Notes: a model not told the origin generated them from the letters alone. A stretch of DNA of 34,191 nucleotides from Comamonadaceae bacterium (GCA_947373605.1 CANBYM010000028.1:1-34191), one strand, 5' to 3'; counted from the stretch's first letter, positions 5,721 to 33,177 are shown. Numbers and translations are program-made.

Positions 5721-5802
5721 GCGGTGAACATATCACGAAGTCGCGCCCCGCCGCCGCAGGGCAGGTCCCGGCACATCAGGCAAAGTCAGGGAAAATGTTT
5801 GC

Positions 5803-6603: not shown

Positions 6604-6610
6604 GCGTCGC

Positions 6611-6624
6611 GCGGCTTCTGCCGC
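6611..6624. terminator. Short GC hairpin between convergent acyltransferase and gspE ends
   Basis: GCGGC TTCT GCCGC is a perfect five-base-pair stem with a four-base loop, eight bases past the acyltransferase stop codon and just before the gspE stop codon on the other strand. No T-run follows on either side, so it could be a weak bidirectional stop signal or chance. Confidence 0.2.
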
Positions 6625-6630
6625 AGGACG

Positions 6631-8019
6631 TTAGTCCCTCGTAACCCTGAGAAGTTCTTCCGGCGAGGTGACGCCGCTTTGCACCAGCCGCGCGCCATCG
6701 TCGCGCATGAGCACCATGCCCGAAGCCAGCGCCGCGTTGCGCAGTTGCGCCTCCGAGGCCTGCTCGTGGATCAGGGCGCGTTGCGCATCATCCGTAACCA
6801 GCAACTCAAAAATACCCGTGCGCCCCTGATAGCCGGTCTGCCCGCATTCGCTGCAGCCTTTGCCGCCGCAGTGGGTACACAGTTTGCGCACCAAACGTTG
6901 CGCCACTACACCCAGCAGACTGGAGCTGAGCAGGAACGGCTCCACGCCCATGTCGGTCAAACGCGTAATGGCACTGGCCGCGTCGTTGGTGTGCAGGGTG
7001 GCGAGCACCAGGTGCCCGGTCAGCGAGGCCTGAATGGCGATCTGCGCAGTCTCGTAGTCGCGGATCTCGCCGATCATGATCACATCCGGATCCTGGCGCA
7101 GGATGGCGCGCAGGGCCTTTGCGAAGGTCAGGTCAATCTTGGGGTTGACCTGCGTCTGGCCGACACCGGGCAATTCATATTCAATCGGGTCTTCCACCGT
7201 CATGATGTTGGCACTGCCTGCGTCAAGCCGGCTCAGCGCAGCGTACAGCGTGGTGGTTTTGCCCGACCCGGTGGGGCCGGTGACCAGAATAATGCCGTGC
7301 GGCTGGCCGATCAGCGACACAAGCCGCTGCAACACATTCCCTTGCAGGCCGACCGACTCCAGTTCAATTTTGTTCTGGCTCTTGTCCAACAGACGTAGCA
7401 CGGCACGCTCGCCGTGCGCACTGGGTAGCGTGCTGACGCGCACGTCCATGGCACGGGTGCCGATGCGCAGCGAGATGCGCCCGTCCTGCGGCAGACGCTT
7501 CTCGGAAATATCGAGCTGCGCCATGATTTTCAGGCGCGAGATGAGTGCTGCATGCAGCGCACGGTTGGGCTGCACTACTTCACGCAGCGTGCCGTCCACC
7601 CGGAAGCGCACGCTGCTGTGGCGCTCATAGGGCTCGATGTGAATATCGCTGGCCCCATCGCGCGCGGCCTGCGTGAGCAGGGCGTTCAACATGCGGATGA
7701 TCGGCGCGTCGTCCGCCGTTTCCAGCAAATCTTCAACGGCGGGCAGCTCTTGCATCATGCGTGAGAGGTCGGTGTCACTTTCCACTTCGCTGACAACTGA
7801 CGCGGCACTAGATTCGCCCTTCGCATAGGCCGCACTGATGCGCTGCTGCAGCGCCGGCGCAACCTGCAGTTCCACTTTGTGCGCACCGAATTTGCGCATC
7901 ACCTCGCTCACGCCCGAGGGTGGCGTCTGCTCATGCATCCAAAGGGTGAGCGTGCCTGCGTCGTCTTCCAGCAGCACTTGCTGGTTGCGCGCAAAAGCGT
8001 AAGGAAGCGGATAGCGCAT
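6631..8019 (-). CDS. gspE: Type II secretion ATPase GspE
   Basis: A 462-residue secretion ATPase that powers pseudopilus assembly at the cytoplasmic face. The Walker A motif GPTGSGKT lies at residues 248-255, a Walker B-type segment ([11 protein letters not shown]) at about 311-321, and 'DIHIEPYE' and 'RLPQDGRI' in the N2E domain. The zinc-binding loop is intact with Cys381, Cys384, Cys389 and Cys392 (CTHC...CSEC), which separates GspE from PilT-like motor proteins. The N-terminal domain is short compared with Pseudomonas XcpR. It begins five bases after gspD, so it ends the main gsp operon. Confidence 0.96.
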
Positions 8020-8024
8020 GGACT

Positions 8025-10145: not shown

Positions 10146-10149
10146 ACGG

Positions 10150-10977
10150 CTAACCCAGAGTAATAACAGATCGTACGCCATCGCGCCGACCCATGATGTT
10201 GAGAAGATTGGAGAGTTCCTGCGCATGGGCGGGTTCAGCGCGGGCCTCACCCTCAAAACGCATACGGCCCGCGTTCCAGCGGCCCTGACCGCTTAATTGC
10301 AAATCGCCTTTGAGTGTGGTGAGCGCCAGGACGGGTTGTTCACCACCCGACATATCAAGCCGGTATGTGCCAAGTGGTTGCAGGGTGGACAGGCGCGAGC
10401 GCATATCCTGCGCCTCTAGCGCAAGGCTCCCCGCGAGTGTGACGCGGTCCAGCGTCATGTTGACGGTAAAGCCCGGCGTACTAAGCGCCAGATTGCCTTC
10501 TGCCTGCACTGTATTCCAAGGCGTACCCAGGCCAGCGAGCACAGCGGCAGGCCAACTAGACTGATGCTGATGCACCTGCACACTCCAGCCATTCCAAAAA
10601 GTCAGCACGTTCAATGGCGCCAATACGACCTGCACCGGGGTCGCAGTGCAACAGGTGGCAGACAGTCCGGCATGCATGCGGGCCCATCCCAGGCCCAAGG
10701 TCCACTGCACACGTCCTGGCAGGCGCACGGAATCGCGGCTGCCGCTGCCGCCGGTCAGTGCGACTTGTGCAGAGCCCTGCCATACCGTGCCCGCACCATC
10801 GCTCATCAGCACACGGTTCTGCGTCATGGCGTTAATGGCGCTTACCAGCCACTGCGCAGGCGCAGACAACACCACGACCACGAGTGCGCCGCACACCAGA
10901 CCCGCAAACGTCCAGGACCAAGGCGCAACAAAACGGCGCTGCATATGGGCAGATAAGCGGGATGAGGAACTTGCCAT
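10150..10977 (-). CDS. gspN: Type II secretion protein GspN
   Basis: A 275-residue protein with one N-terminal membrane segment (about 'TFAGLVCGALVVVVLSAPAQW') and a periplasmic beta-rich domain containing 'GTVWQGSAQVAL', typical of GspN. GspN is an accessory inner-membrane component found in a subset of T2SS loci. The track start at 11127 would overlap most of gspM's end. The ATG at 10977 (MASSSSRLSAHM) lies 17 bases after the gspM stop codon and is preferred; the downstream Met of 'MQRRF' is an alternative. Its position between gspM and gspD matches many proteobacterial gsp operons. Confidence 0.88.
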   Translation of the reverse strand: MASSSSRLSAHMQRRFVAPWSWTFAGLVCGALVVVVLSAPAQWLVSAINAMTQNRVLMSDGAGTVWQGSAQVALTGGSGSRDSVRLPGRVQWTLGLGWARMHAGLSATCCTATPVQVVLAPLNVLTFWNGWSVQVHQHQSSWPAAVLAGLGTPWNTVQAEGNLALSTPGFTVNMTLDRVTLAGSLALEAQDMRSRLSTLQPLGTYRLDMSGGEQPVLALTTLKGDLQLSGQGRWNAGRMRFEGEARAEPAHAQELSNLLNIMGRRDGVRSVITLG

Positions 10978-10994
10978 AAAAAAGAACGACGCGG

Positions 10995-11528
10995 CTACTT
11001 CGCTGTGCCGCCTTGCGGCAGGGTAAACGTAAGCGTGCCACTCCAGCCGGGCTTGGCTTGTGAATCGCGCTGCAGGTGCACCTCGTTGGCTTGCAACTGC
11101 AACGAAGCGCCGGGTTGCGTCAACCACAAGGCCAGTTCTTTCGCCCCAACTTGCTGCAGCGTTAGGGTTACCTGATCACCCAGCACCCGCACCGTTGCAC
11201 CATTGCCAAGCGCTGTCACAGACGCTTGAAAAGCCTTCAGTGCCTCCGCCGCCGACACGACCGACTGACTTTGCAAAGCGCGTGCAAGCAGTTGCAAGCT
11301 CAGCATACGCTCCAGCTCGGCATCCAATGCCTGATGCTGGGCGGGGGCTTTTTGCAGCACCCGTATCGCTGGCGCCAACAGCACCAGCCATACCAGCGCC
11401 ACGCCCACCAGCAACGCAGCCAGGCGCACACCGCGCTGTTCGCGCGGCGCCAGGCGCATCCACTTGTCCTGCATGGGCTGCAGCACGCCAGACCAACGAG
11501 CCATCGAACCAGTGACACCGTTCGCCAT
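10995..11528 (-). CDS. gspM: Type II secretion protein GspM
   Basis: A 177-residue bitopic inner-membrane protein. A short cytoplasmic N-terminus with 'MRLAPREQRGVRLAALLVG' leads into one membrane helix, then a periplasmic ferredoxin-like domain. GspM partners GspL in the inner-membrane platform. The ATG at 11528 shares one base with the gspL stop codon (TGATG), strong evidence for this start and for translational coupling. The ORF-track start 19 codons upstream is therefore rejected. Sequence conservation in GspM is low, so the call relies partly on operon position. Confidence 0.92.
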   Translation of the reverse strand: MANGVTGSMARWSGVLQPMQDKWMRLAPREQRGVRLAALLVGVALVWLVLLAPAIRVLQKAPAQHQALDAELERMLSLQLLARALQSQSVVSAAEALKAFQASVTALGNGATVRVLGDQVTLTLQQVGAKELALWLTQPGASLQLQANEVHLQRDSQAKPGWSGTLTFTLPQGGTAK

Positions 11529-12742
11529 CAGCGGGCCTCCTTGCGTTGCAAAACCAGTTGATCGCCCTGCAAGCGCGCCTGCCAACCCTGCGCACCGATA
11601 GCGGTGGTTACCGCCGCCGCATCCGCGTCGCTCAGGCCGTTGGCCTTCAGACGCAGTTCTGAGGCACTTAAGTCCACGGCGGACAACGCTTTAGCGTTTC
11701 CAAGAGCGCTGCCCGCTGCGGTAAGCAAGCGCGCCACGTCCACATCCGCCGCGCCTCGCGATTGCGCCAGTGCGCCGACCTCGCGCTGCATTTGCACCGG
11801 CGCATCGACGATGACCGGAATGTTGGGGAAGGTTTGACGCAGCACCGCCTCAATACTGCCGCGCTTTTGCGCCAACAGCGACTGCTGGCGATAAGCTGCT
11901 GCGTTGAGCGCCACCACCTGCGAAACCAGCAAAGCCAGCAGACCCCAGCGTACCGGGCGCCACTGCGGCGCGTGCAGCAAGGTTTGCCAGGCACCGCCGA
12001 TCCGCTTCATGGCGCGCCCGCGCTTGGAGGGACTAAATTCCAGCTGCGCCAGATTGCGCGTGGACTGCGCAGCGCGCAGCATGGCTTGTTGCAAGCTTTG
12101 CGCCTGCATCGGCACGCCAAATGCAGCCTCGACTTCACCCATCACCGCAGGCTGCGCCCACATTTCAACCTCGCCATGCGATTGAATGAGTGACACCGCC
12201 GTGGCGCCAAAGGGTACCAGCATCACGCCCGAGGCCGTGCACAAGGCCACTTGGGTCCGCTCTGCGGCAGCGCTGAAATAGGCAAGCGGATTGGCCCCCG
12301 CATCCACGGGTTCGCATTCGGCCACGATACGCGCCACTTCATAGCCAGCCGCTTCCAGTGCGGCAAGTGCATTGCGCAGCCAGTCCCGTTCGCACACGGC
12401 CACCCACAATGCAGCACCTGTGGCGGGACCGGGGAATGCCGCGAAATGCAGGTTAGCTGCATCGTCCAGCAATTGCTCCTCCATCGCGCCACTGAGCACT
12501 GCACGAGCACGCATAGGGTCTGCACGGGTAGTAAGAACACTCGCCGCCACTTTGTCCGGCATGTTCACCGCATGCCACGACAGAGCGTGCGCTGGCAGCA
12601 CAGCTACCACCCCTGTGCCGCGCGCCGCGGCGGGCATGAGCGCCGGTGCCGCACGGCCATGCGTGACGGTTTGCAAGTCGTCGCGCTGCAGCACGTAGTC
12701 AAACTCCGGCGTCGCGTTGAGGTAAAGAATCAGCGTAGGCAT
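11528..12742 (-). CDS. gspL: Type II secretion protein GspL
   Basis: A 404-residue protein with an actin-like cytoplasmic domain (residues about 1-240, including 'LPAHALSWHAVNMP' and 'EEQLLDDAANLHFA'). One membrane helix follows ('RWGLLALLVSQVVALNAAAY', near residue 265), then a periplasmic ferredoxin-like domain. GspL binds GspE in the cytoplasm and GspM in the membrane. The start is a clear ATG, 19 bases downstream of the gspK stop codon. Full family length, with nothing missing that I can see. Confidence 0.95.
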   Translation of the reverse strand: MPTLILYLNATPEFDYVLQRDDLQTVTHGRAAPALMPAAARGTGVVAVLPAHALSWHAVNMPDKVAASVLTTRADPMRARAVLSGAMEEQLLDDAANLHFAAFPGPATGAALWVAVCERDWLRNALAALEAAGYEVARIVAECEPVDAGANPLAYFSAAAERTQVALCTASGVMLVPFGATAVSLIQSHGEVEMWAQPAVMGEVEAAFGVPMQAQSLQQAMLRAAQSTRNLAQLEFSPSKRGRAMKRIGGAWQTLLHAPQWRPVRWGLLALLVSQVVALNAAAYRQQSLLAQKRGSIEAVLRQTFPNIPVIVDAPVQMQREVGALAQSRGAADVDVARLLTAAGSALGNAKALSAVDLSASELRLKANGLSDADAAAVTTAIGAQGWQARLQGDQLVLQRKEAR

Positions 12743-12761
12743 GGGCTTAAAAAGTGTTGGC

Positions 12762-13676
12762 TCATTGTAGAGATTCGCGTTTACGCCAAAGCACCTTCAC
12801 ATCGGTACCCTGCCGGTCAATCACAGACACCTCTTGCACTGTGGTATCGCCGATGCGCAACTGCCCGCGCACCGCGAAATAGCGTGTGGCTACGCTGAAT
12901 TGGGCACTATCGACTTTGTCGGTACTGATGCCAGCCGCCTTCAGACCCGCGGCTACCGTCTCATAGTGGGCCAAGGCGCGCCCCGCCACCATTTGCTGGG
13001 CTTGTCCGGCATCTAGGCCCGGCAGTGCCGCCACCAGCACTGGCACAGGAGCGGTATTGAGGTTGACGGTCGTACGCGTAGGCAGCAAGGTGGCATAGGG
13101 AGCCAAAGCCTGCAGCGTTGCGTCCGGCACACCCAGCCACGTCAGCTGGTCAAAACGGGTGGGCGTCAATTGGCCCGCATCCGCCTTGCCTGCGCTGGCA
13201 GAAATCAGGTTTCCCACCAATTTATCAAGTTGCGCCGGCGGCAAATTCAAGGCCTTGAACAAGCGTCCGAAGACCTTGAGATCAGACGGCGAAGGCTTGC
13301 CATCCTGCACCAGATTACTCACATTGAGCAGCCCCTGCAAATCGGTAATTTGCCCTGACAAAAACGCTTCCATGGTGTCGTCGGTGTTGTTTTTATCCAC
13401 CGCCAGAAAACTCGACAAGCGCGCTTCAGACAGCGCCAAGGCCCAGGGCTCCGATAAATGGTCGACCTGGCTGGTGCGGCCATCTTCCCGCAAAATCAAC
13501 CGCGCCCAATCCAGCGCGCCGGTCAGTACCCAGGCCATTTGCGTGCGGGTGCGCTCAGCGCTTTCCACCTCCACGTTGCGCCATTGCTGCCACAGGGCAG
13601 CGGCGGCAAAGGTGGCCACCAATGTCACGGTCAACATGGCCGTGAGAATGGCGGCACCGCGCTGAACGGTGCGCAT
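12762..13676 (-). CDS. gspK: Type II secretion minor pseudopilin GspK
   Basis: A 304-residue large minor pseudopilin. It starts 'MRTVQRGAAILTAMLTVTLV', a prepilin-type leader ending in Gly followed by a hydrophobic helix that lacks the usual Glu at position 5, as is normal for GspK. The helix-hairpin-helix-like stretch 'VLVAALPGLDAGQAQQMV' is also typical. GspK caps the pseudopilus tip with GspI and GspJ. The ATG at 13676 overlaps the gspJ stop codon in TGATG; the track's start 12 codons earlier is rejected for that reason. Confidence 0.95.
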   Translation of the reverse strand: MRTVQRGAAILTAMLTVTLVATFAAAALWQQWRNVEVESAERTRTQMAWVLTGALDWARLILREDGRTSQVDHLSEPWALALSEARLSSFLAVDKNNTDDTMEAFLSGQITDLQGLLNVSNLVQDGKPSPSDLKVFGRLFKALNLPPAQLDKLVGNLISASAGKADAGQLTPTRFDQLTWLGVPDATLQALAPYATLLPTRTTVNLNTAPVPVLVAALPGLDAGQAQQMVAGRALAHYETVAAGLKAAGISTDKVDSAQFSVATRYFAVRGQLRIGDTTVQEVSVIDRQGTDVKVLWRKRESLQ

Positions 13677-14395
13677 CACGATTTGTTCCCAGCAACCGTG
13701 GGACGAATCCAATCGCGCGTAATCACCCCTGCCAGTACTGAGCCCTCGGGCAGCGTGAGCACCAGCCGCACACCATCGGGCGTGGCGTTGGCAGCATCAG
13801 CGCTGGACATGGGATTGCTCCACGCGTCATTGCGAAAGAAATAAATGCTCCAGTCCCCCAGCGGCACCACGGCCACTTCGCTCTTGCGGGCGGCATCATC
13901 CGGGCTTTGCGCCCAGATGGCCGCTTGCGACCAGGAAGCTTGCAAATCCACCGGGTTGTGCAACAGTTCGGACTGCCAGCGCAACCATTGCCCCTGCGAA
14001 GCGTCTTGTGCCGGCATCAGCCTGCGGCTCCAGGCCACTACGCGCAGACCGGATTCACCCGCAGCGCCGGATGCGCGCACGATGCGCAGCACCTGGCCAT
14101 TCCAATCCAGCGACACGGGTTTGCTGGCATTGGAGACATTCAGTTTTGGCGCAGCTTCCATGCTTCCGCCGTTGACCGCAGGGGCAGCAGTCTGCGCCAG
14201 ATCGACCATGGCATCCAAATCCGCGCCGAACTGGGCCATGCCGTTTTGCAGCGCCACCAGTTCATCGGCGCGCGACTGGGTAATGGCCGTTGCGCGCGCC
14301 ATTCCGTCAAGTCCGCGCCAGCTCAGCACGGATAGCAACGCCATCACCATCAGGGCGACCAGCAACTCGACCAAAGTAAAACCGCGCTGCCGCAT
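13676..14395 (-). CDS. gspJ: Type II secretion minor pseudopilin GspJ
   Basis: A 239-residue minor pseudopilin with a textbook prepilin leader (MRQRG then FTLVELLVALMVMALL): cleavage after Gly, and Glu at position 5 of the mature protein. It forms the pseudopilus tip with GspI and GspK. The start overlaps the gspI stop codon by one base (TGATG) and the end overlaps the gspK start in the same way, so three genes are translationally chained. A prepilin peptidase encoded elsewhere, probably PilD, must process it. Confidence 0.95.
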   Translation of the reverse strand: MRQRGFTLVELLVALMVMALLSVLSWRGLDGMARATAITQSRADELVALQNGMAQFGADLDAMVDLAQTAAPAVNGGSMEAAPKLNVSNASKPVSLDWNGQVLRIVRASGAAGESGLRVVAWSRRLMPAQDASQGQWLRWQSELLHNPVDLQASWSQAAIWAQSPDDAARKSEVAVVPLGDWSIYFFRNDAWSNPMSSADAANATPDGVRLVLTLPEGSVLAGVITRDWIRPTVAGNKS

Positions 14396-14754
14396 CAGTA
14401 ACGCCCCATTACCGTGGTGATTTGCAACAAGGGCTCAGCGCCACGCGATACCTTGGCTTCCAGCCGCAGAAAGTTGGGATTGGGTGTGGGGCGTACCGAG
14501 TCCACGATGGTTAAAGTTTGTCCGGCCTGCTCGCAGCTCACAGACGTGTCCCCTACGGCAGGCATTTGCTTGGACAGGCGCAAACGTACGAGTTCATTTT
14601 CGGCACACCACTGCGCCAGCATGGCATCGGACTGGCGCTGCGCGTTACGCTCCAGCGATGCCGTGGCCTTCAGACCGGCCGTCAGTGCAATAGCCACGAT
14701 GCCCAGCGCCACCAGCACTTCAATCAGAGTGAAACCGCGATGTCGAACTGTCAT
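14395..14754 (-). CDS. gspI: Type II secretion minor pseudopilin GspI
   Basis: A 119-residue minor pseudopilin, normal size for GspI. It starts 'MTVRHRGFTLIEVLVALGIV', with a prepilin leader cleaved after Gly and Glu5 present. The conserved 'AQWCAENELVRLRL' segment is characteristic of GspI. The ORF track extends 77 codons upstream into gspH; that stretch lacks the signature and is rejected, because the ATG at 14754 sits two bases past the gspH stop codon and immediately precedes the leader. Confidence 0.95.
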   Translation of the reverse strand: MTVRHRGFTLIEVLVALGIVAIALTAGLKATASLERNAQRQSDAMLAQWCAENELVRLRLSKQMPAVGDTSVSCEQAGQTLTIVDSVRPTPNPNFLRLEAKVSRGAEPLLQITTVMGRY

Positions 14755-14756
14755 GC

Positions 14757-15209
14757 TCACGGCGCCTCCACTTTGAAGGGATGCAGCCCGTCTGTAACCA
14801 CCCGCCAGGCCGAGCCACTTTGCACTTTGCTGCTGAGCAATACGCTTTGCGGGCTGAGGATGGGATCGGGTCCCAGATTCAGTGTGACCCCGGCGGCAAC
14901 TTCTGTGCCCGCGTCGAGCCAGGTATCGGGGAGCACGCTTTCGGGCAAACCTACAAATCGAAAACCCGAGCCAGTGGCTTGCCATTGCACCGCCACCCCG
15001 CGCATGCGTGACTGCGCCCTGCCGGATTCGAGCAAGGCAGCCAGGCGTTGCGCATCGCGCTCTACAGTGGTTTGTGAAGTGTCCCGCATGGCAAGGGCCA
15101 CCCCCGCCATTCCGATGGCGATGATGCTCACCACAACCAGCAACTCCAACAGCGTAAAGCCGTGTTGCGGACTGCGCCGGTGCTTATTGCCAGCTGCCGA
15201 TATCAGCAT
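14757..15209 (-). CDS. gspH: Type II secretion minor pseudopilin GspH
   Basis: About 150 residues, with 'RRSPQHGFTLLELLVVVSII' giving a prepilin cleavage site after Gly and Glu at position 5. The region after the helix, 'DAQRLAALLESGRAQSRMRG', is typical of GspH/FimT pseudopilins. I start it at the ATG at 15209 (MLISAAGNKH), which gives a leader of about 18 residues and overlaps the end of gspG by 26 bases. No start codon lies closer to the cleavage site. The overlap is longer than for its neighbours, so the start is less certain than the identity. Confidence 0.92.
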   Translation of the reverse strand: MLISAAGNKHRRSPQHGFTLLELLVVVSIIAIGMAGVALAMRDTSQTTVERDAQRLAALLESGRAQSRMRGVAVQWQATGSGFRFVGLPESVLPDTWLDAGTEVAAGVTLNLGPDPILSPQSVLLSSKVQSGSAWRVVTDGLHPFKVEAP

Positions 15210-15609
15210 CTTTGCCTTCGCCGCCTGGTTTGCCATCAGCGCCAAAGGACATCACATCAATCTCCCCCTTGATACCGGGGTTCAGATACTGGTAGGGCCG
15301 GCCCCAGGGGTCATTGGGCAACTTCTCCAGATAAGGTTTCCAGTTGGCAGGAACGGGGTCGGTGGTGGGCTTAGCCAATAGGGCCTGCAAGCCCTGCGTT
15401 GCGGTGGGGTAGCGCTGATTGTCGAGTTTATAAAGTTTGAGCGCCTGACCGAGATTAGCAATATCGGTTTTTGCTGCAGTGACACGAGCGTCATCGGCGC
15501 GGTCCAGCACATTGGGCACGATCAGCGCGGCCAGCACCCCAATGATGACCAGCACCACCATTAACTCAATCAGCGTGAAGCCACGCATCGCTTTCAATGT
15601 TTTTTTCAT
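15184..15609 (-). CDS. gspG: Type II secretion major pseudopilin GspG
   Basis: A 141-residue major pseudopilin that builds the T2SS pseudopilus. The leader 'MKKTLKAMRG' is followed by 'FTLIELMVVLVIIGVLAAL'. The C-terminal half has the GspG signature patterns 'LYKLDNQRYPTATQGL', 'NDPWGRPYQYLNPG' and 'VMSFGADGKPGG', which includes calcium-binding Asp residues in the family. I chose the ATG at 15609 because a ten-residue leader is normal; the ATG at 15630 would give 17 residues and is an alternative, and neither has a clear ribosome-binding site. First gene of the minus-strand gsp operon. Confidence 0.95.
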   Translation of the reverse strand: MKKTLKAMRGFTLIELMVVLVIIGVLAALIVPNVLDRADDARVTAAKTDIANLGQALKLYKLDNQRYPTATQGLQALLAKPTTDPVPANWKPYLEKLPNDPWGRPYQYLNPGIKGEIDVMSFGADGKPGGEGKDADIGSWQ

Positions 15610-15690
15610 GGCTGTTATTGTTGCTCGCATGAGGATTGATTCGCCGGCAATTTTAGTGCGTGGATACTTCCTTAAACGATAATCGCAATC
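15610..15690. promoter_or_regulatory. Divergent gspG / gspC intergenic control region
   Basis: This 81-base gap separates the two divergent starts of the T2SS locus, so both promoters must lie here or within the first codons. GATAAT at 15678-15683 on the plus strand resembles a -10 box for gspC, but I see no good -35 at the right spacing. On the minus strand TTGCGA and TATCCA are 16 bases apart, a weak candidate for gspG. No clear operator is visible. Confidence 0.3.
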
Positions 15691-16140
15691 ATGCAATGGA
15701 CTTCACACCAGATCTGGGCTCCGCGTGTCAGCGCTTTTGGCGTTGCATTGTTGCTGGGCGCGGGGGTGAGCTATTGGGTATTGCATTGGCCAGCGGCCGC
15801 GGTAACACCCCTTGCCAGCACCGCGCAGGCTGAATTGCCGCAAGCGGACGTCAACAGCGTAACCCGTTTGCTTGGCTCCCCTACCGGTGCCGCGCTTGAA
15901 GCCGTTGCGCCGGTGGTCAACCGATTCGTCCTGATCGGCGTCGTCGCCCGAAGCGCAGGGGTCGGTTCAGCCATCATCGCGGTGGACGGTAAACCAGCCA
16001 AGTCCTATGCGGTTGGCAGCACCATTGAAGCCGGCCTCGTGCTCAAGGCGGTAGCGGCCCGCAAGGCAATGCTGGCCGGCAGCATGGATGCAGGCACGCT
16101 CCAAACTCTTGAAATGCCTGCCCCCTCGGCGGGCAAATAA
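15691..16140 (+). CDS. gspC: Type II secretion protein GspC (short form without PDZ)
   Basis: A 149-residue inner-membrane protein: one N-terminal membrane helix ('VSAFGVALLLGAGVSYWVLHW') and a periplasmic homology-region domain ('NRFVLIGVVARSAGVGSAIIAVDGKP', 'YAVGSTIEAGLVLKAV'). GspC links the inner-membrane platform to the GspD secretin. It ends soon after the HR domain, so the PDZ or coiled-coil domain found at the C-terminus of many longer GspC proteins is absent. It is transcribed divergently from gspG-E, whereas in many species gspC heads the same operon. Convergent with dctM, 29 bases away. Confidence 0.88.
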   Translation: MQWTSHQIWAPRVSAFGVALLLGAGVSYWVLHWPAAAVTPLASTAQAELPQADVNSVTRLLGSPTGAALEAVAPVVNRFVLIGVVARSAGVGSAIIAVDGKPAKSYAVGSTIEAGLVLKAVAARKAMLAGSMDAGTLQTLEMPAPSAGK

Positions 16141-25456: not shown

Positions 25457-26143
25457 ATGAAAGTTCTGCTGGTAGAAGACGAGCAAAAAATTGCCGGGTT
25501 CATGAGCGCCGGCCTCAAGGAGCAGGGCTTTGTCGTGGAGCACTGCGACAACGGCATTGACGGTTATGACCGCGCCAGCGCGGGCAGCTTTGATGTCATC
25601 GTTCTGGACATCATGTTGCCTGGGCGCGATGGCCTCTCCATCCTCAAATCGCTACGAAAGTCGGGCAACGTGACGCCGATTATTTTGCTCACTGCGCGCA
25701 ATGAACTGGACGACCGCATCGAGGGTTTGTCGATGGGTGCGGACGACTATCTGGCCAAGCCGTTTTTTGTGGAGGAGCTCATCGCGCGGGTGATGGCGCT
25801 GCTGCGCCGCGTCTCCGGTGAGCGGCAAAACGTGCTGGCCGTGGGTGAGTTGCGGCTGGACCGCATCAGCCGTGAGGTCACCTGGTACGGTCAGAGCGTG
25901 GACCTGACCGGACGCGAATTCAACCTGGTGGAATACCTTATGCGCTCACCCGGACGCGTACTCACGCGCACTCAGATACTCGAACATGTATGGGACTACG
26001 ACTTTGATCCCAGCACCAACGTGGTCGATGTCTGCATTCAGCGCATCCGCAAGAAGATGGCATCGATTGGTGTTGATGCCGGTGGCGAGTCGCCCATTGA
26101 GAGCGTGCGCGGCGTGGGCTACCGTTTTCGCAAATTGGCATGA
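25457..26143 (+). CDS. OmpR/PhoB-family response regulator
   Basis: A 228-residue regulator. The receiver domain has the acidic pair 'VEDE', phospho-acceptor Asp51 ('VLDIMLPGRDG'), Thr79 in 'LLTARNE' and Lys101 ('YLAKPF'). The C-terminal winged helix has 'LTGREFNLVEYLMRSPGRVL' and ends 'ESVRGVGYRFRK'. The track starts at a GTG one codon earlier; the ATG at 25457 has AAGGGA six bases upstream and is preferred. It overlaps the kinase gene by ATGA, so the two form one operon. It resembles the CusR/IrlR-like branch. The divergent alkB is a plausible but untested target. Confidence 0.93.
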   Translation: MKVLLVEDEQKIAGFMSAGLKEQGFVVEHCDNGIDGYDRASAGSFDVIVLDIMLPGRDGLSILKSLRKSGNVTPIILLTARNELDDRIEGLSMGADDYLAKPFFVEELIARVMALLRRVSGERQNVLAVGELRLDRISREVTWYGQSVDLTGREFNLVEYLMRSPGRVLTRTQILEHVWDYDFDPSTNVVDVCIQRIRKKMASIGVDAGGESPIESVRGVGYRFRKLA

Positions 26144-28059
26144 TCCGCTCGTTCCGTTTGCGACTGGCCTTGTTGTCGGCACTGCTGGCCGGACTGGTGC
26201 TGGCCGCCTTCGGCTTGGGCAGCCTGTGGTTGATCCGCAATATCAAGACCGAGAAAATTGACAACGAACTGCGCTTCTTTGCCGAGCGACAAGCCGCCCG
26301 GCCACGCGACCCGGACGGCTGGCCATTTGCGGAAGGTGAGCTGGCCATCCGGCTTGGTGTGCGAGACCGTACTGACCTGCTTCTGCTGGTGCAAACGCCA
26401 TCCGGCGAGACACTATTTCAATCCGCCCATTGGCCTGCCGATTTACGCACCGACAAAATCAACTGGCCCAAACCGGGCGACGGACCCGGGCAAAGGTCAC
26501 TCAATAGACCCTTGGGTATGGTGTTCATTGCATCCGCGCAGGCTGCCACCGTGTCAGAGTATGCGCCGGTGCAGTTGGCTGCCGGTGGCCCCGGCGGCGG
26601 TGGACCAGGCGGCGGTCCCGGTGGAAGAGGCAGTCCGGGCGGGCCGGGTGGGCCCGGTGGTCCACCAGGTCCTACAGGTCCTGCGCCGGGAGCGCCTGCG
26701 GTGGCTCCGCCCGGTGCGCTTCCCGGACCCTCACGTTCCACAGACAGACCGGAGCCTGCACCCTATAGGCCCCTGCCATTGGAGCAGACAGATCAGGTTG
26801 CCACACCGGAGATGCGATTGCCGCCGCCCAGCGCGGCGCAGGTGAACACACCAATGCATTCGGTGGCCGGTCCTTTAGCCAACAACACAGCGCCCGATGC
26901 CCGCCCACCGCAGCACGTGGACCGGCCACCTCCGTTGGTGCTAGAGCCACTTCCACCACTGCCGACCGACAGGCCACCGCCGGCATCCGCAGTGCAGGCC
27001 TTGTTTGCAGCCGCTGACCAGCAATGGCGCTTCGGCCTCTCAGCCGCGGACAATGTACGCGTTGCCATTGCGATTAACGCCAGTGTCATGGACAGCGATA
27101 TGCGTGGCACCCGCATCGCCTTTTTGCTCGCCCTTCCTTTTGCTTTGGTACTCATCGGCGCAGGAAGTTGGGTATTTGCCGGCAGGGCATTGCGGCCGCT
27201 GCAAAAGCTGACTGCCGTAACGCAGCGTGTGACGGCGGAAGGCCTGAGCCAGCGCATACTGGCCCGGGGCGAAGACCTGGAGTTCGCCGGGCTTATTGAA
27301 GTGTTTAACAACATGCTGGCACGGCTGGAGCGCAGCTTTCAGCAAGCACGCCGCTTCTCGGCAGACGCGGCGCATGAGCTTAAGACCCCACTGGCCATTG
27401 TTCAGGGGCAGCTGGAGCGCGCCATTGCCCAAGCGGAAGACGGCTCCAACATGCAGGGTAACCTGACCAGCATTCTCGATGAAGTGCAGCGCCTGTCCAC
27501 CATCTCTCGCAAGCTGCTATTGCTCTCGCAGGCCGATGCGGGAAAGCTCTATGTCTCAGGCACCCCCTTCGACATGAGCAGTGCCCTTGAGGATTTGCTG
27601 GAAGACACACGCATGCTGGCGCCGCAATTGCAGGTCAACGCCAACATTGAAGCGCAGCTCTTCGTGCAAGGCGACGCCAGTCTGCTACGACAGGTGTTGC
27701 ATAACCTGATCAGCAACGCCATTAAGTACAACGCGCCGCCCGACGGCGTGCGGGGATGGATTCGCATCGACGCGCAGCGCCGTGTCAAAGGCATCGAAGT
27801 AGTGGTGAGCAACTCATCAGAAGGCATTGCCGCTGCGCTACGGGAAAAAATTTTTGAACGCTTTTTCCGGGTGGACTCTGCGCACAGCCGCAGCGTAGAA
27901 GGGGTAGGCCTAGGACTGAGCGTATCGCGTGAGATCGCCCGCGCACACGGTGGCGATCTGACCCTGCAAGGTGTCGATGCGGGCGCGGTGTATTTCGCGC
28001 TGCATTTGCCACTGCAGCGCCCCACGATAAATCGATGGGGCGGCCGCGCTATGCAATAG
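26140..28059 (+). CDS. Sensor histidine kinase with collagen-like periplasmic insert
   Basis: A 639-residue membrane kinase. The first membrane helix covers about residues 5-30. A periplasmic region runs to about 325, a second helix covers about 326-348 ('IAFLLALPFALVLIGAGSWV'), then HAMP (about 351-400). The phospho-acceptor His412 lies in 'FSADAAHELKTPLAIVQGQL', the N box has Asn522 and Asn526, and a glycine box reads 'GVGLGLS' (588-594). Residues about 147-286 are Gly/Pro-rich and start with a run of Gly-X-Y triplets ('GGPGGPGGPPGPTGP'). The first ATP-binding glycine box reads NSSEGI (558-563) instead of a DxGxGI-type motif. Signal and ligand are unknown; partner of the coupled regulator. 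Confidence 0.92.
   Translation: MIRSFRLRLALLSALLAGLVLAAFGLGSLWLIRNIKTEKIDNELRFFAERQAARPRDPDGWPFAEGELAIRLGVRDRTDLLLLVQTPSGETLFQSAHWPADLRTDKINWPKPGDGPGQRSLNRPLGMVFIASAQAATVSEYAPVQLAAGGPGGGGPGGGPGGRGSPGGPGGPGGPPGPTGPAPGAPAVAPPGALPGPSRSTDRPEPAPYRPLPLEQTDQVATPEMRLPPPSAAQVNTPMHSVAGPLANNTAPDARPPQHVDRPPPLVLEPLPPLPTDRPPPASAVQALFAAADQQWRFGLSAADNVRVAIAINASVMDSDMRGTRIAFLLALPFALVLIGAGSWVFAGRALRPLQKLTAVTQRVTAEGLSQRILARGEDLEFAGLIEVFNNMLARLERSFQQARRFSADAAHELKTPLAIVQGQLERAIAQAEDGSNMQGNLTSILDEVQRLSTISRKLLLLSQADAGKLYVSGTPFDMSSALEDLLEDTRMLAPQLQVNANIEAQLFVQGDASLLRQVLHNLISNAIKYNAPPDGVRGWIRIDAQRRVKGIEVVVSNSSEGIAAALREKIFERFFRVDSAHSRSVEGVGLGLSVSREIARAHGGDLTLQGVDAGAVYFALHLPLQRPTINRWGGRAMQ
26580..26700 (+). repeat. Collagen-like Gly-X-Y coding repeat within the kinase
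   Basis: The DNA is an irregular series of GGN-CCN and GGN-GGN units encoding roughly a dozen Gly-X-Y triplets with one phase break. The region reads 'GPGGGGPGGGPGGRG' and then 'PGGPGGPGGPPGPTGP' in protein. A strongly Pro-rich tail without triplets follows to about 26995. Such repeats expand and contract easily by slippage. Confidence 0.8.
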
Positions 28060-28312: not shown

Positions 28313-28441
28313 TGTTGCTCCAAGAATGTTGAGCGGACTTAAGCCTGATAACAACTACAGGCAGGGCTCTAACCACCTGAAGCAGCGCAATCTTCAGCCG
28401 TATTCAATGCAATGTAAAGAGACGCGCCGCGTTTATGCACG

Positions 28442-28458
28442 GGCTGATGGAATCAGCC
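28442..28458. repeat. Perfect short inverted repeat at the break of the IS remnant
   Basis: GGCTGAT GGA ATCAGCC is a seven-base-pair stem with a three-base loop. It sits about ten bases beyond the point where transposase similarity stops. It may mark the deletion junction or be an end of another element; no T-run follows, so it is not a standard terminator. Confidence 0.5.
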
Positions 28459-28904
28459 TCACTCAATGCTTCGACTTCTCCGTTCAGCTGGTCTCTACCA
28501 GAGCGCACCATTGCCCGGCGCAGCCGGTGCAACCTGGTCCAGGCCGTCTCATAACTTCCCAGGCCCAGAACACGTTGGAGTCCGAGGGCGTTGACTCCCT
28601 GCTTTTGGTTAGTGACATACCAGATAGCGGCAAACCAGATGCGCAGCTCCGTTCTGGTTTTGTCAAAGATGGCTCCAGCCGTCACGCTGGACTGGTGCTT
28701 ACAGCGCCGGCAAATCAGGCGGCCGCGAGTCAAACGAATAGGCTCGTTCTGGTGTTCACACTTTGGACAAACAAAGCCTTTAGGCCATCGCAGATGTTGG
28801 AGGTACTGACGGCAAGCTTCGTCAGAGTGAAACCAGTCCATGAACTGACCCCAGTTCTTGGGGTAATCCACTCCAGCCTTCAGGGATTCGCTTTGGACAG
28901 CCAC
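28459..28904 (-). pseudogene. Truncated IS1595-family transposase (N-terminal part only)
   Basis: The ORF opens at a GTG and shows the IS1595-type N-terminus: 'FMDWFHSDEACRQYLQHLRW', then a zinc ribbon 'CPKCEH...CRRCKHQ', then 'GLGSYETAWTRLHRLRRAM'. Similarity runs to 'GRDQLNGEVE', where intact family members continue into the first catalytic Asp (VDETY-like). Here it turns into an unrelated 20-residue tail and stops at 28404. The whole DDE catalytic domain is missing, so it cannot transpose. Full-length relatives are about 300 residues. The remnant lies at the border between the alkane/sensor region and the lower-GC accessory region. Family assignment is by recognition. Confidence 0.8.
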
Positions 28905-29007: not shown

Positions 29008-29658
29008 CTACGCTCTGCGCTTACGCACTTTGACACTGAGTTGGTAATTGATCACCGTCGTAGGGCCGATGAGCGTTACCCCCTTCACGGGGATCGTCTT
29101 TATCTCATTGGCCTGCCATAGGGTCACTTTGAAGTCACCGGTTGGAAGGTCGTCAAGGGTGGCGATGCCATCAACACCAGTTTTTGCGGCCCATGGCGAA
29201 TCGGCAACGTAAACGTACCCGGTCATGGATGAATGCAAGTGGCACCCAAGCAGTACGACGCCTGCGGCATCGACGGTGACTTCAAAAGATTGAGGCGCCT
29301 TGCCCTCAACCAATGCGTTCTCGCGCGCTTGGAATAGCGGCGCGTAATCGACGCCAAACTGGTTACCGGTGGTCGCACGAATATGGTGGTCCCACGGATC
29401 CATATTGACGAATCGGAGCTTGCTGCCGGGTGTCACCAGAGTCACCTTGGGAACAAACTGCATCTTCTCTTGCTTCACAATAGAAAGCGCGCTCGGTAAA
29501 ACTTTTGGCGCAGTGCCGGACGCCGGATGCACAGACACCACTGCTTCCTCAACGGGCACGCCGTCTGCATCAACGACCATTACTTTCAACGTCGCTGCTT
29601 CGCTCACTAAACAAATGAGCGCACTGACTAGCAGTACAGGTAAGTGTTTCTTTTTCAT
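29008..29658 (-). CDS. Secreted amicyanin-like cupredoxin ('methylamine utilization protein' type)
   Basis: A 216-residue exported protein with a signal peptide (residues 1-21, 'MKKKHLPVLLVSALICLVSEA'). The cupredoxin-like domain has His91/92 (MDPWDHHI) and the ligand loop 'GCHLHSSMTGYVYV'. Its Cys139, His142 and Met145 have the +3 and +6 spacing seen in amicyanin, so a type-1 copper site is likely. Carboxypeptidase-regulatory-like strands ('DADGVPVEEAVVSVHP', 'GIATLDDLPTGDFKVTLW') flank it. Relatives are often labelled methylamine utilization proteins, but no mau genes are present, so that name is probably misleading. The ATG overlaps the globin stop codon (ATGA). Confidence 0.82.
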   Translation of the reverse strand: MKKKHLPVLLVSALICLVSEAATLKVMVVDADGVPVEEAVVSVHPASGTAPKVLPSALSIVKQEKMQFVPKVTLVTPGSKLRFVNMDPWDHHIRATTGNQFGVDYAPLFQARENALVEGKAPQSFEVTVDAAGVVLLGCHLHSSMTGYVYVADSPWAAKTGVDGIATLDDLPTGDFKVTLWQANEIKTIPVKGVTLIGPTTVINYQLSVKVRKRRA

Positions 29659-30083
29659 TGGGTAATGATGTCGCGGTGCATGGGAGCCAGTTTGGCTAAC
29701 AGCTGGTTTTGTGCGGAAAACGGAATATTTTTTGCGTCCATTGCTGCTTGCAAATCTTCTACGAGTGCGTTGAAGTTCCCCTTGGTAATGTCCAAGCTGG
29801 AATGCGCGCTTTTCATATCAGCACCTGTGTATTTGCAAGAACCGCCGGAAAGCACACAAAATTGCTCTGCCAGCCGATCACTCAGATTCTGTGAATTGGT
29901 TTTCTTGAACATATCTCCGAACCGCGTATCGGCTTTTAGCCGGGCTACAAAGTCTACCGTCAGGCTTGTAATACCGGCATTTTCGCCAAGCGCCTTGTAG
30001 AGGGCCGGGTCAGTTTGTGCAGTTGCTACCGACGCGGCCATTGCGCCGCAAATCAGCGCCAAATAAAGTAAAGTTCTCTTCAT
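29655..30083 (-). CDS. Exported group I truncated haemoglobin
   Basis: A 142-residue protein with a signal peptide (about 1-23, 'LALICGAMAASVATAQ') and a truncated-globin domain starting 'LYKALGENAGITSLTVDFV'. The proximal haem-ligand candidate is His94 in 'DMKSAHSSLDIT'. Two cysteines (Cys76 and Cys83, 'QFCVLSGGSCKYTG') sit just before it and could form a disulphide in the periplasm. Most truncated globins are cytoplasmic, so export is unusual. It probably binds O2 or NO or passes electrons. The track opens at a TTG; the ATG at 30083 is preferred. It lies 35 bases after the DUF3034 gene and overlaps the cupredoxin gene by ATGA. Confidence 0.88.
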   Translation of the reverse strand: MKRTLLYLALICGAMAASVATAQTDPALYKALGENAGITSLTVDFVARLKADTRFGDMFKKTNSQNLSDRLAEQFCVLSGGSCKYTGADMKSAHSSLDITKGNFNALVEDLQAAMDAKNIPFSAQNQLLAKLAPMHRDIITQ

Positions 30084-30118
30084 GGTATTGGGTTCCAAAT
30101 GGGGTAATAAGACGCTAA

Positions 30119-31066
30119 TCAGAATGCCACTTGTGCAGAGACATACAGACCCTCTTGCTTACGAAAGGCGTTGGCAACAGGAACGACCTGTCCCAAATTG
30201 ACGTAAGCAGCGGTCAGCGAAAAGTTTTTGCCAGGTGCCCAAGCCACAAAGAGGTCCTGCCAATCGTCCGAATGCAAATAGCCCGGCGCGATAGAGTTCT
30301 GATAGTTGTTGGGCATCACCCGGTACTCCGCGCCCAAGGCGAAGTCCTTTCGCAGCAGGTAGGCGACTGACAGCTCTGGTACCAACTGGTATTTTTGTTC
30401 GCCATTGGCGCCAAAACCCAGCAGACCGCCCTGGTTTGCTTCCGTCATTCGCAAAGTCCCATTGAGCAGAATACTGTTGGCCAAAAAAAGCTTGGTCGCT
30501 GCAAGGTACACATCGGTTCCGGATGTTTTAGCGCCTAAGGCACTAATGACAGCGCTGTAGGAGCCTGCGGATGTACTTTTATAAAGCAATCCCGCCGATA
30601 TTTGCGGCATGAGTGAATCACTATCCAAAACCGCGTCACCCACAAGCCTTACCTTCGCACCGAGAACATCCATTTTGAGATGCTGTCCTGCAGTGATAGT
30701 AGGAACTACGGTGGAGATCACGCCATAGGTAGAGCTTGCATTCAGGTCCTGTTGTGCGCACGACAGCTCCACGCGCTCATTGATTCCAACGGCCAGACCA
30801 TAGGTTGTCAAGTCAAAGTCTTGTGTATTGAGGCGACTGGCATTGGCGCTTAATCCATACTCCCCGGCGGTTGCATTGCTGCCAATCACTGCCCATGGAC
30901 TGATACCGCCGCCAGCCGCACCTTCAACGGTCGATACACCACCTGTCAGCAGCAGTTTCCCCGTGTCAGCCGAGGCCGCAACGCAGGCAGTCGCTAACAA
31001 CGTAGCGGTCAAGGTCACGCGCACAGGGGTTCGATTACGGCGCTTGCGTTGAGCGATTGATTGCAC
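30119..31066 (-). CDS. DUF3034 outer-membrane beta-barrel protein
   Basis: A 315-residue exported protein. After a basic N-terminus and signal segment ('VTLTATLLATACVAASA') it reads 'DTGKLLLTGGVSTVEGAAGG', the opening of DUF3034 proteins. Alternating hydrophobic strands and a terminal Phe ('GLYVSAQVAF') indicate an outer-membrane barrel inserted by the Bam machinery. The GTG start at 31066 is supported by GAGGA seven bases upstream. First gene of the minus-strand set with the globin and the cupredoxin, which suggests an outer-membrane port or sensor for that redox pair. Function unknown. Confidence 0.85.
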   Translation of the reverse strand: MQSIAQRKRRNRTPVRVTLTATLLATACVAASADTGKLLLTGGVSTVEGAAGGGISPWAVIGSNATAGEYGLSANASRLNTQDFDLTTYGLAVGINERVELSCAQQDLNASSTYGVISTVVPTITAGQHLKMDVLGAKVRLVGDAVLDSDSLMPQISAGLLYKSTSAGSYSAVISALGAKTSGTDVYLAATKLFLANSILLNGTLRMTEANQGGLLGFGANGEQKYQLVPELSVAYLLRKDFALGAEYRVMPNNYQNSIAPGYLHSDDWQDLFVAWAPGKNFSLTAAYVNLGQVVPVANAFRKQEGLYVSAQVAF

Positions 31067-31201
31067 GGAAATTTCCTCAATTATTTAGTTGGCGGGCAAG
31101 CTTAGACGGAAAATTGCCACACATGTACTTTAACTGTGCTTTCAAGAACACGTGACTGCCCCACAATACCGGTCTAACCAGTTGGTGTAATAATTTGTAA
31201 T
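31067..31201. promoter_or_regulatory. Divergent control region between DUF3034 and DUF2946 genes
   Basis: This 135-base gap must carry both promoters of the envelope redox region. GAGGA at 31074-31078 on the minus strand is the DUF3034 ribosome-binding site. ACCGGTCTAACCAGTTGGT at about 31169-31187 has imperfect dyad symmetry (ACCAGTTGGT) and could be an operator. The plus-strand start follows an AT-rich run (GTAATAATTTGTAATATG) with no Shine-Dalgarno, so the DUF2946 transcript may have a very short or absent leader. Confidence 0.4.
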
Positions 31202-31558
31202 ATGCAGACCTTACGCAACGCCAAAACTTTAGCCCGCTTCGCGCTGGTGTGGTTTGCGTTGTTCTTGGGTGTTGCTACAGCCGCGCCATTCGTTAGCCCG
31301 CAAACTACGCAGGTGATTTGTTCTGTGGATGGCACGACGAAAGTGGTCGTCGCCAACGCCGGCCTGAACGAATCAGACAGTGGCCACCACTTGAAGTGTC
31401 CCTTATGTACTGGTGTCGGGGCACTACCTCCAATGGAACTGGTGCTCTTCGATGCAGTGAAAACTTCGGCTTACTTGCCACGAAGTATTGACGCAGCCCG
31501 GATTGCGTCGAAGGCCGGCGCAACTCTTCCGCCGCGCGGCCCCCCTACTTTCCTGTGA
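31202..31558 (+). CDS. DUF2946-family exported Cys/His protein
   Basis: A 118-residue protein with a signal peptide or anchor (about 1-28, 'FALVWFALFLGVATAA'). The DUF2946 core has Cys40 ('QVICSVDG') and the motif 'HHLKCPLC' (His62, His63, Cys66, Cys69), followed by 'LPP'. Such proteins are small, periplasmic and often found near copper or other metal genes; the Cys/His set suggests metal or thiol chemistry, though a binding role is not proven. No clear ribosome-binding site. Followed after about 106 bases, with a hairpin in between, by the CASCGC barrel gene on the same strand. Confidence 0.78.
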   Translation: MQTLRNAKTLARFALVWFALFLGVATAAPFVSPQTTQVICSVDGTTKVVVANAGLNESDSGHHLKCPLCTGVGALPPMELVLFDAVKTSAYLPRSIDAARIASKAGATLPPRGPPTFL

Positions 31559-31572
31559 ACGCCTGAGTTACT

Positions 31573-31598
31573 TGCGCTGGATATTTTTTTCCAGCGCA
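31573..31598 (+). terminator. Nine-base-pair hairpin between DUF2946 and barrel genes
   Basis: TGCGCTGGA pairs perfectly with TCCAGCGCA around a loop of TATTTTTT, 14 bases after the DUF2946 stop codon. The T-run is inside the loop rather than after the stem, so it is not a classical terminator. It could be a processing or attenuation hairpin that sets the ratio of the two products. A second small stem, GCGCA TC TGCGC, follows at about 31606-31617 and could compete with it. Confidence 0.45.
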
Positions 31599-31664
31599 GC
31601 GTCAGCGCATCTGCGCCCTTCAACACCGTCTTTGTGGCCTCGTGCCCATTAATTGAAATACACC

Positions 31665-32675
31665 ATGAAAAAATACACACGCATTGCTTTGGCAATCGCA
31701 ACAGCATTACCAACCGGCGCGGCTTTCGCATGTGCGAGCTGCGGTTGCACCTTGAACTCAGACTTTGGTACCCAAGGACTATCCACTTCCTCCGGATGGA
31801 GCCTGGACGTGCGCTACGACACGCTCAATCAGAACGAGCTCAGGAAAGGAACGGGAACCATCTCCGCTACAGAAGCGGCCTCGTCAGTCAACCCGACTAC
31901 CGGCAATAAAGCGGAAGTAGAAAAGTTCACCGACAACAAGTACCTGACCACCACGCTGGACTACAACAACGGTGACACATGGGGCCTGAGCATTTCAGTT
32001 CCCTACATCGACCGTTCTCACAGTACTTTGGGCGTTAACGGCGATGGTGTAAGCGCTGGCGATGGCGCCTATGACTCGAGTGCCTCAGGGCTTGGGGATG
32101 TCCGCGTCATCGGCCGCTATTACGGGTTTTCAGAGGAGAAAAAATTCGGCATTCAATTCGGTCTCAAACTTCCCACCGGAAACACAAAACAGACTGCACC
32201 CGCCGCTGACGGTTCAGGCCCGGTGGATGTTGACCCCGGATTGCAGCTGGGAACCGGAACCACGGATGCCATCGTTGGCGTCTACTATTTTGACAACCTG
32301 AATCAGAATTGGGACTACTTTGTACAGGCTCAATTCCAAACCGCGCTGAATTCTTCCAGCATGGGCGCGGGCTCCCTTTCGTACCGCCCCGGAGACAGTG
32401 TCAACCTGACCGGCGGTATGCGTTACCACGGTTTTGAATCATTCACACCCACAGTGCAGTTCAATGCGCGTAATGTCAATGCGGACTCCGGCGATGCGGC
32501 GGACAAATACGCCACCGGAGGGACATTGATTTATTTCACACCGGGTGTTACGGTTCCTGTGAATTCCGCAATGTCGGTGTACTCCAACGTGCAGATTCCG
32601 CTTTATCAAAACGTCAATGGCATTCAAATCGCACCGACCAGCATTATCTCTATCGGTGCACGGGTAGCGTTCTAA
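31665..32675 (+). CDS. Outer-membrane barrel protein with CASCGC N-terminus
   Basis: A 336-residue protein with a signal peptide (about 1-22) whose predicted mature end begins 'CASCGCTLNSDFG', giving Cys23, Cys26 and Cys28. The rest is an alternating-strand barrel with 'DVRVIGRYYGFSEEKKFGIQ', 'FGLKLPTGNTKQ' and a terminal Phe after 'ISIGARVA'. It resembles unnamed barrels found near TlpA-type thioredoxins in beta- and delta-proteobacteria, and loosely the phenol-degradation MetA-type transporters. The cysteine cluster at the mature N-terminus suggests a bound metal or a redox-exchange site. The ATG at 31665 is preferred to the TTG at 31653. Ends four bases before the convergent tlpA-like gene. 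Confidence 0.78.
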   Translation: MKKYTRIALAIATALPTGAAFACASCGCTLNSDFGTQGLSTSSGWSLDVRYDTLNQNELRKGTGTISATEAASSVNPTTGNKAEVEKFTDNKYLTTTLDYNNGDTWGLSISVPYIDRSHSTLGVNGDGVSAGDGAYDSSASGLGDVRVIGRYYGFSEEKKFGIQFGLKLPTGNTKQTAPAADGSGPVDVDPGLQLGTGTTDAIVGVYYFDNLNQNWDYFVQAQFQTALNSSSMGAGSLSYRPGDSVNLTGGMRYHGFESFTPTVQFNARNVNADSGDAADKYATGGTLIYFTPGVTVPVNSAMSVYSNVQIPLYQNVNGIQIAPTSIISIGARVAF

Positions 32676-32679
32676 CGGT

Positions 32680-33177
32680 CTATTTCGCCAGCAATGGCGT
32701 CACCAGCGACTCCAGTTCTGCGGCGCTGATTTCAGCGTCGCCGACATGGCCGTTCTTTCGCAGGACGCCCTCTTTGTCGATCACAAAGGTGGTCGGCATT
32801 CTCCATATACGCCCCAGACCCTTGAAATTGGCATCTGCTTTGAGTGCCACTTGAAAGCTGAATTGCTGCGCCATTTTCTTTACCATCGGCTCGTCTTTGG
32901 GGTCATCCATGCTGATCGCGAGAACCTCCAGTCCATCACCCCGATGCTGCTGCAGATATGACTGCAAGGCTGGCATTTCGGCCTTGCAAGGCGCACACCA
33001 AGTCGCCCAAAAATTAACTATGACGACCTTCCCACGCTGCTTTACGAGTTGAAAGACTTCGTTGCTGTCCAACAATTTGGCCTGTATATCGGGCGCAGCC
33101 TGTCCCACGGACAAATCCGCAGCGATCAGCTTGGAACACATGACGAGTGACACCAGCAACAAAGGCAGTTTTTTCAT
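32680..33177 (-). CDS. TlpA/ResA-type periplasmic thioredoxin
   Basis: A 165-residue exported thioredoxin-fold protein with a signal peptide (1-20, 'LLLVSLVMCSKLIAA'). The active site is WCAPC (Cys61, Cys64) in 'VNFWATWCAPCKAEMPAL', and the cis-Pro (Pro128) sits in 'WRMPTTFVID'. TlpA/ResA-type proteins reduce disulphides or metal-site cysteines in the periplasm, for example during cytochrome c or Cu-A assembly. The client is unknown here, but the exported cysteine proteins next to it (CASCGC barrel, DUF2946, globin Cys pair) are candidates. It follows the OmpA-like gene on the same strand by 41 bases. Confidence 0.92.
   Translation of the reverse strand: MKKLPLLLVSLVMCSKLIAADLSVGQAAPDIQAKLLDSNEVFQLVKQRGKVVIVNFWATWCAPCKAEMPALQSYLQQHRGDGLEVLAISMDDPKDEPMVKKMAQQFSFQVALKADANFKGLGRIWRMPTTFVIDKEGVLRKNGHVGDAEISAAELESLVTPLLAK

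Follow-up and report, generated by a model that had tools for sequence, protein, structure and literature searches.

Do six neighbouring genes for exported redox and metal proteins act as one system of the bacterial envelope, or are they separate sets that lie side by side? The question is raised by positions 29008-33177 of a contig of a Comamonadaceae bacterium, analysed here over its full 34,191 nt (the window). A preliminary description had proposed that these genes form a single copper/haem/thiol redox module. All six ORFs lie where that description had placed them (Table 1), in the order of three genes on the minus strand, two on the plus strand and one more on the minus strand. Its account of six adjacent exported redox or metal proteins was borne out, as the families and ligand residues are all present and Sec-type signal sequences could be read by eye at the start of every protein. 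The proposed ATGA couplings reduce to one overlap between the globin stop and the cupredoxin start (29655-29658), with no other inside the set and a 35-nt gap between the DUF3034 and globin genes. The best globin start is the ATG at 30083. The arrangement in two divergent sets is correct insofar as the DUF2946 and CASCGC barrel genes run on the plus strand, away from the three minus-strand genes, but the TlpA gene lies on the minus strand and converges with the CASCGC barrel gene across a 4-nt gap.

Table 1. Features of the six-gene stretch, with the profile match or pattern behind each assignment (block A and block B are the two gene sets distinguished in the text).
Feature	Position	Strand	Support
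Cupredoxin, 216 aa, exported (block A)	29008..29658	-	PF00127 Copper-bind, 26.7 bits (cut-off 21.2)
Group 1 truncated globin, exported (block A)	29655..30083	-	PF01152 Bac_globin, 42.1 bits (cut-off 21)
DUF3034 outer-membrane barrel (block A)	30119..31066	-	PF11231, 300.5 bits (cut-off 25)
DUF2946 CruR/CutF-type exported leader ORF (block B)	31202..31558	+	PF11162, 34.7 bits (cut-off 23.7)
Hairpin TGCGCTGGA-TATTTTTT-TCCAGCGCA, candidate attenuator element (block B)	31573..31598	+	9-bp stem
Probable outer-membrane barrel, mature N-terminus CASCGC (block B)	31665..32675	+	sequence pattern
TlpA/ResA-like exported thioredoxin, WATWCAPC (block B)	32680..33177	-	PF00578 AhpC-TSA, 81.6 bits

We assessed whether the six genes travel together by scoring their presence and absence in 151 genomes from the same family and applying Fisher tests. 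Presence was called at E<1e-30 for the globin profile, at E<1e-45 for the cupredoxin and by strong full-length matches for the CASCGC barrel; the E-value cuts were chosen after a gap in the match lists was visible, and kinship among the genomes means that the p-values overstate the count of independent events. DUF3034 was present in 52 genomes, all of which also held the globin, while the other 99 held neither, so that no genome carried one alone (p=9e-42). The cupredoxin was found in 68 genomes, namely 46 of the 52 with DUF3034 and 22 of the 99 without it (p=1e-15). By comparison, the ten genomes with a CASCGC barrel comprised 4/52 with DUF3034 and 6/99 without (p=0.74), the barrel was likewise independent of the cupredoxin (p=0.35), and the 146 DUF3034 loci considered, drawn and named together, contained no CASCGC barrel gene at a distance of 6 kb or less from DUF3034. 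In addition, the same genome carries a second trio on another contig (C135), with 84, 70 and 71% identity to the DUF3034, globin and cupredoxin of the window, and there the remaining three genes are missing. A single functional module is suggested by the contiguity of the six genes and by their exported, metal- and thiol-rich products, but these counts make it very improbable, and we rejected it.

The locus thus holds two independent neighbouring sets, one of DUF3034, globin and cupredoxin (block A) and one of DUF2946, CASCGC barrel and TlpA (block B), and the linkage inside block A is far beyond chance. The joint envelope role put forward in the preliminary description survives as a haem/copper idea for block A, at the level of genetic linkage; the genes of block B fall outside it, as a separate conserved group.

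Within block A, the DUF3034 barrel and the exported two-Cys globin constitute an obligate gene pair. We compared three draws of DUF3034 loci (46 family-level, 20 wider and 80 from named genomes), which share some genomes and hence yield partly dependent counts. The globin gene neighbours DUF3034 directly in 46/46, 20/20 and 76/80 of these loci, respectively, and two of the four misses, all in named genomes, are contig ends. A phylum-wide draw gave the same picture, with the globin carried by 25/25 DUF3034 genomes and a similarly strong globin in one further genome (G302). The cupredoxin is present at fewer DUF3034 loci (25/46 family-level, 16/20 wider and 36/80 named), and in 62 of the 126 family-level and named loci the DUF3034-globin pair stands alone. 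Separately, one locus of Polaromonas sp. CG9_12 (L213, near 8001) has two adjacent DUF3034 matches, separated by 4 nt, upstream of a single globin and cupredoxin; these are either a tandem copy or a frameshift.

The exported cupredoxin belongs to a second gene pair, its partner being an inner-membrane dCache_3-HAMP-GGDEF-EAL protein. This enzyme is absent from the window and is found elsewhere in the host genome, beside a third cupredoxin on contig C10. Cupredoxins remote from DUF3034 and globin adjoin the enzyme in 13/13 checked loci, that on C10 included, and outside the family the enzyme gene is next to the cupredoxin in 15 of 20 DUF3034 loci. The two pairs are strongly associated, often within a single four-gene cluster that occurs in several orders across Gamma- and Alphaproteobacteria. 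In Caballeronia sp. SBC2, for example, the NCBI annotation lists DUF3034, group 1 truncated hemoglobin, methylamine utilization protein and EAL domain protein consecutively, and in that of Novosphingobium sp. EMRT-2 the same four genes are rearranged. At least eight arrangements keep the block A genes and the enzyme together, among them cupredoxin-enzyme-DUF3034-globin, DUF3034-globin-cupredoxin-enzyme, and enzyme plus cupredoxin divergent from DUF3034-globin. Gene order that varies so widely argues for selection to stay together and not for shared descent of one arrangement. The linkage of DUF3034, globin and cupredoxin is tight across Pseudomonadota. In the open-licence literature we found no description of a DUF3034 system, DUF3034 being named there in two papers and in passing only, and none that joins a truncated haemoglobin, a GGDEF protein and a cupredoxin; the block A trio is widespread and apparently undescribed.

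We then considered what each component brings to the set. By sequence, fold, HisF8 and CD1 Phe, the globin of the window is a group 1 truncated haemoglobin. Its best PDB match is M. tuberculosis HbN, and its AlphaFold model, a 2-over-2 fold, matches HbN and P. caudatum Hb (1dlw) at an rmsd of 1.2-1.6. The proximal HisF8 (His94, numbered from ATG 30083), the CD1 Phe and a Cys pair (Cys76 and Cys83, at E15 and in the EF loop) are each kept in 143/143 aligned homologues, and the two Cys could plausibly form a disulphide in the periplasm. HbN is an NO dioxygenase, in which the TyrB10/GlnE11 pair supports O2 binding and NO dioxygenation. The block A globin has the fold, proximal His and CD1 Phe of HbN, but it is exported, carries the invariant Cys pair and lacks the TyrB10/GlnE11 distal pair. 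The window protein has Val/Leu at these positions; of the 143 homologues, 130 carry an apolar B10 residue (Val, Met, Leu, Ile), and every one has Leu, Ile or Phe at E11, never Gln. NO dioxygenation of the HbN type is disfavoured by this apolar distal pocket. Two lineages without DUF3034, in which globin, cupredoxin and enzyme adjoin, have lipoprotein-like globins that lost the proximal His and kept both Cys (L238 5563-6240 and L239 5587-6231), which means that haem is not always needed. A phage search with the globin returned no match. At a locus unlinked to DUF3034 (L246 5925-6833), two different truncated globin ORFs stand in tandem.

The cupredoxin contains an amicyanin-like type-1 copper domain at about residues 61-151, set between N- and C-terminal segments similar to a CarboxypepD_reg/Ig-like domain (27 of 34 members match CarboxypepD_reg). 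Judged from its sequence, it has the type-1 His, Cys, His, Met ligand set, and these residues (H91, C139, H142 and M145) are invariant in alignments of 20 and of 34 cupredoxins. The nearest profile matches are amicyanin and a CuNiR cupredoxin domain. With amicyanins and the 'methylamine utilization protein' cupredoxins, as NCBI names the block A homologue, it shares the C-x2-H-x2-M ligand loop and the upstream His. It differs from amicyanin in that its copper domain lies between Ig-like pieces and that its gene neighbours encode globin, barrel and EAL enzyme; neither the window nor the annotated neighbours included a methylamine dehydrogenase gene. For DUF3034, the AlphaFold model (pLDDT 81) is a 12-strand barrel with long strands, and the Foldseek matches, OmpG and FapF, were generic (about 1e-7, with TM scores of a modest 0.4-0.5). 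In the enzyme, the EAL, ITE, DD(F/Y)G and AEG motifs are kept in 38/38 sequences, while the GGDEF domain is degenerate in about half of them, which points to phosphodiesterase as the likelier common activity. The copy on C10 (L229, 4082-6487 and next to it) has an intact EAL and a degenerate GGDEF (AGGQF).

We put the chances at about even that block A supplies the envelope components of a periplasmic set for haem/copper sensing that feeds c-di-GMP hydrolysis, a reading that adds a proposed mechanism to the observed linkage. The cupredoxin, and the globin either directly or by way of the cupredoxin, would report a periplasmic condition to the dCache_3 domain, the cupredoxin binding that domain and the globin acting with the cupredoxin. 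The signal would be the ligand or redox state of the haem and the type-1 copper, most likely reflecting O2, NO or redox stress. The dCache_3 domain would then tune c-di-GMP hydrolysis by the intact EAL, with lower c-di-GMP as the output, and the DUF3034 barrel would anchor the globin at the outer membrane or admit its ligand or cofactor. In Comamonadaceae the surroundings of the trio often include a cytochrome c, a Ferritin_2 protein and an ECF sigma factor together with an RskA-type anti-sigma, and the sigma and anti-sigma genes lie nearer to the DUF3034-globin pair than any c-di-GMP enzyme; the output there may therefore be transcriptional. The C135 trio (L033 3200-8500) is flanked by an ECF sigma factor, an RskA-type anti-sigma, a Ferritin_2 protein and two cytochromes c.

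Block A could instead be a redox or detoxification module, in which the globin reduces or scavenges periplasmic NO, O2 or peroxide, the cupredoxin (with cytochrome c where present) gives electrons, the barrel admits the substrate and the enzyme is merely co-regulated. The complete type-1 copper site, the NO dioxygenase activity of HbN as nearest solved relative, and the cytochrome c, ferritin-like and ECF sigma genes near many Comamonadaceae loci are consistent with such a role, but the missing TyrB10/GlnE11 pair is not, and electron transfer does not explain why every DUF3034-remote cupredoxin checked pairs with a c-di-GMP enzyme. We regard this alternative as unlikely and prefer the sensor reading because the globin pocket is apolar and the cupredoxin pairs so strictly with the enzyme. 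More doubtful still is a role in cofactor acquisition or storage, with barrel and globin binding or importing haem, the cupredoxin binding copper and c-di-GMP control secondary. The constant pairing of an outer-membrane barrel with a haem-protein fold and the metal-related neighbours, such as Ferritin_2 proteins, would fit this role. Haem uptake, however, usually proceeds via 22-strand TonB-dependent barrels, whereas DUF3034 is a 12-strand barrel, and the universal retention of proximal His and CD1 Phe in the aligned globins suggests a protein with stably bound haem.

A sensing role can be compared with known c-di-GMP systems. In YfiBNR a periplasmic partner, an inner-membrane c-di-GMP enzyme and an outer-membrane protein are encoded together, and block A with its enzyme resembles YfiBNR/HmsCDE in this respect. 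The periplasmic partners there are YfiR/HmsC, compared with cupredoxin and globin here, and the outer-membrane protein of YfiBNR is an OmpA-like lipoprotein and not a 12-strand barrel; block A thus presents globin, cupredoxin and DUF3034 barrel in place of a YfiR-family repressor and an OmpA-like lipoprotein. Its enzyme also differs from those of YfiBNR/HmsCDE in having the dCache_3-HAMP-GGDEF-EAL architecture with a conserved EAL. To our knowledge, the list of periplasmic inputs known for c-di-GMP enzymes is short. The periplasmic protein HmsC, which contains Cys pairs, works together with HmsD in a response to redox, and copper is unmentioned in a 2022 census of such inputs (PMC8846402). A further likeness is to DgcO-type globin-coupled sensors, in which a globin is linked to c-di-GMP metabolism (PMC8846402). 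The globins of those sensors are cytoplasmic, fused and 3-over-3, whereas that of block A is separate, exported and truncated (2-over-2). We tentatively propose, at somewhat less than even confidence, that an exported two-Cys truncated globin, a type-1 copper protein and an outer-membrane barrel work together to control a c-di-GMP phosphodiesterase in Alpha- and Gammaproteobacteria, which would make them a new envelope sensor class and a split periplasmic counterpart of globin-coupled sensors.

Through the linkage alone, DUF3034, a barrel family of unknown function, acquires a partner that co-occurs with it perfectly in the drawn genomes. The comparison also defines a subfamily of exported truncated globins whose Cys pair is invariant and whose pocket is apolar. 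As DUF3034 and globin are now linked to a cupredoxin and a c-di-GMP enzyme, a signalling role becomes testable, and directly so in culturable Caballeronia and Novosphingobium, which carry four-gene clusters.

Block B falls within the copper-responsive CruR/CutF kind, which is known, and its barrel is an unusual cargo for such a set. DUF2946 corresponds to the CruR/CutF family, in which copper is sensed by the nascent chain, which controls the gene that follows (PMC9426467, PMC9973294). In such systems an exported DUF2946 ORF with a CxxC and a Pro-rich C-terminus heads a gene set after a long gap, and the same layout is seen in block B. The window protein fits the family by its profile score above the cut-off, its CxxC and an export signal read by eye. 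The gap between it and the CASCGC barrel gene measures 106 nt and includes a hairpin region (31566-31610) with a folding energy of -20.2 kcal/mol (z -5.3, 0/200 shuffles), within a larger region that is not unusual in folding (z -1.6). Among ten loci homologous for the barrel, a DUF2946-like ORF (pattern CxxC-(40-50)-[RK]xPP end) lies directly upstream in six, and a TlpA homologue lies within 0.8 kb in seven; the same CxxC...[RK]xPP pattern gave 3 matches in 2.55 Mb of control loci, one of them apparently a real DUF2946 gene. AhpC_TSA genes are among the reported CruR/CutF companions (PMC9426467), as TlpA is here.

Block B departs from other CruR/CutF sets in its downstream gene, the CASCGC barrel in place of a TonB receptor or multicopper oxidase, and in the end of its leader ORF. 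The leader ORF has CPLC at residues 66-69 and, stopping three residues short of the C-terminus, RGPP at 112-115, a motif spacing of 42, compared with RAPP at about 45 in the family and at 45 in two homologues (L122 and L124); its attenuator function may be weakened as a result. The CASCGC protein, probably an outer-membrane barrel, had no Pfam or NCBIfam match. Its predicted mature end (GAAFA/CASCGC) presents a C-x2-C-x-C cluster, which reads CASCGC or CATCGC in the homologues listed. The leader ORF would control this barrel according to copper, and TlpA would keep its Cys cluster reduced; copper regulation of the predicted unit is plausible from these features.

The assembly comprises 331 contigs with 5.98% contamination. 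At 28404-28904, beside the six genes, an IS1595-type transposase remnant, reduced to its zinc-ribbon part, coincides with a fall in GC from 0.60 to 0.53 and has partial copies elsewhere in the genome. It is a possible insertion edge or assembly join, and in so fragmented and contaminated an assembly it may mark a misjoin, which would leave our conclusions unchanged because they rest on other genomes. The GC step at about 28 kb is real, but it was rejected as proof of an island, since other contigs of the assembly span 0.50-0.64. A repeat search found no flanking repeats of an island, and scans for promoters and terminators found nothing beyond the level of shuffled sequence. Elsewhere in the window, the periplasmic part of a sensor histidine kinase at 26140-28059 carries a long Gly/Pro-rich insert, and an ordinary-looking type II secretion set (GspF, E, D and pseudopilin genes, recognized by eye) occupies 4488-15696.
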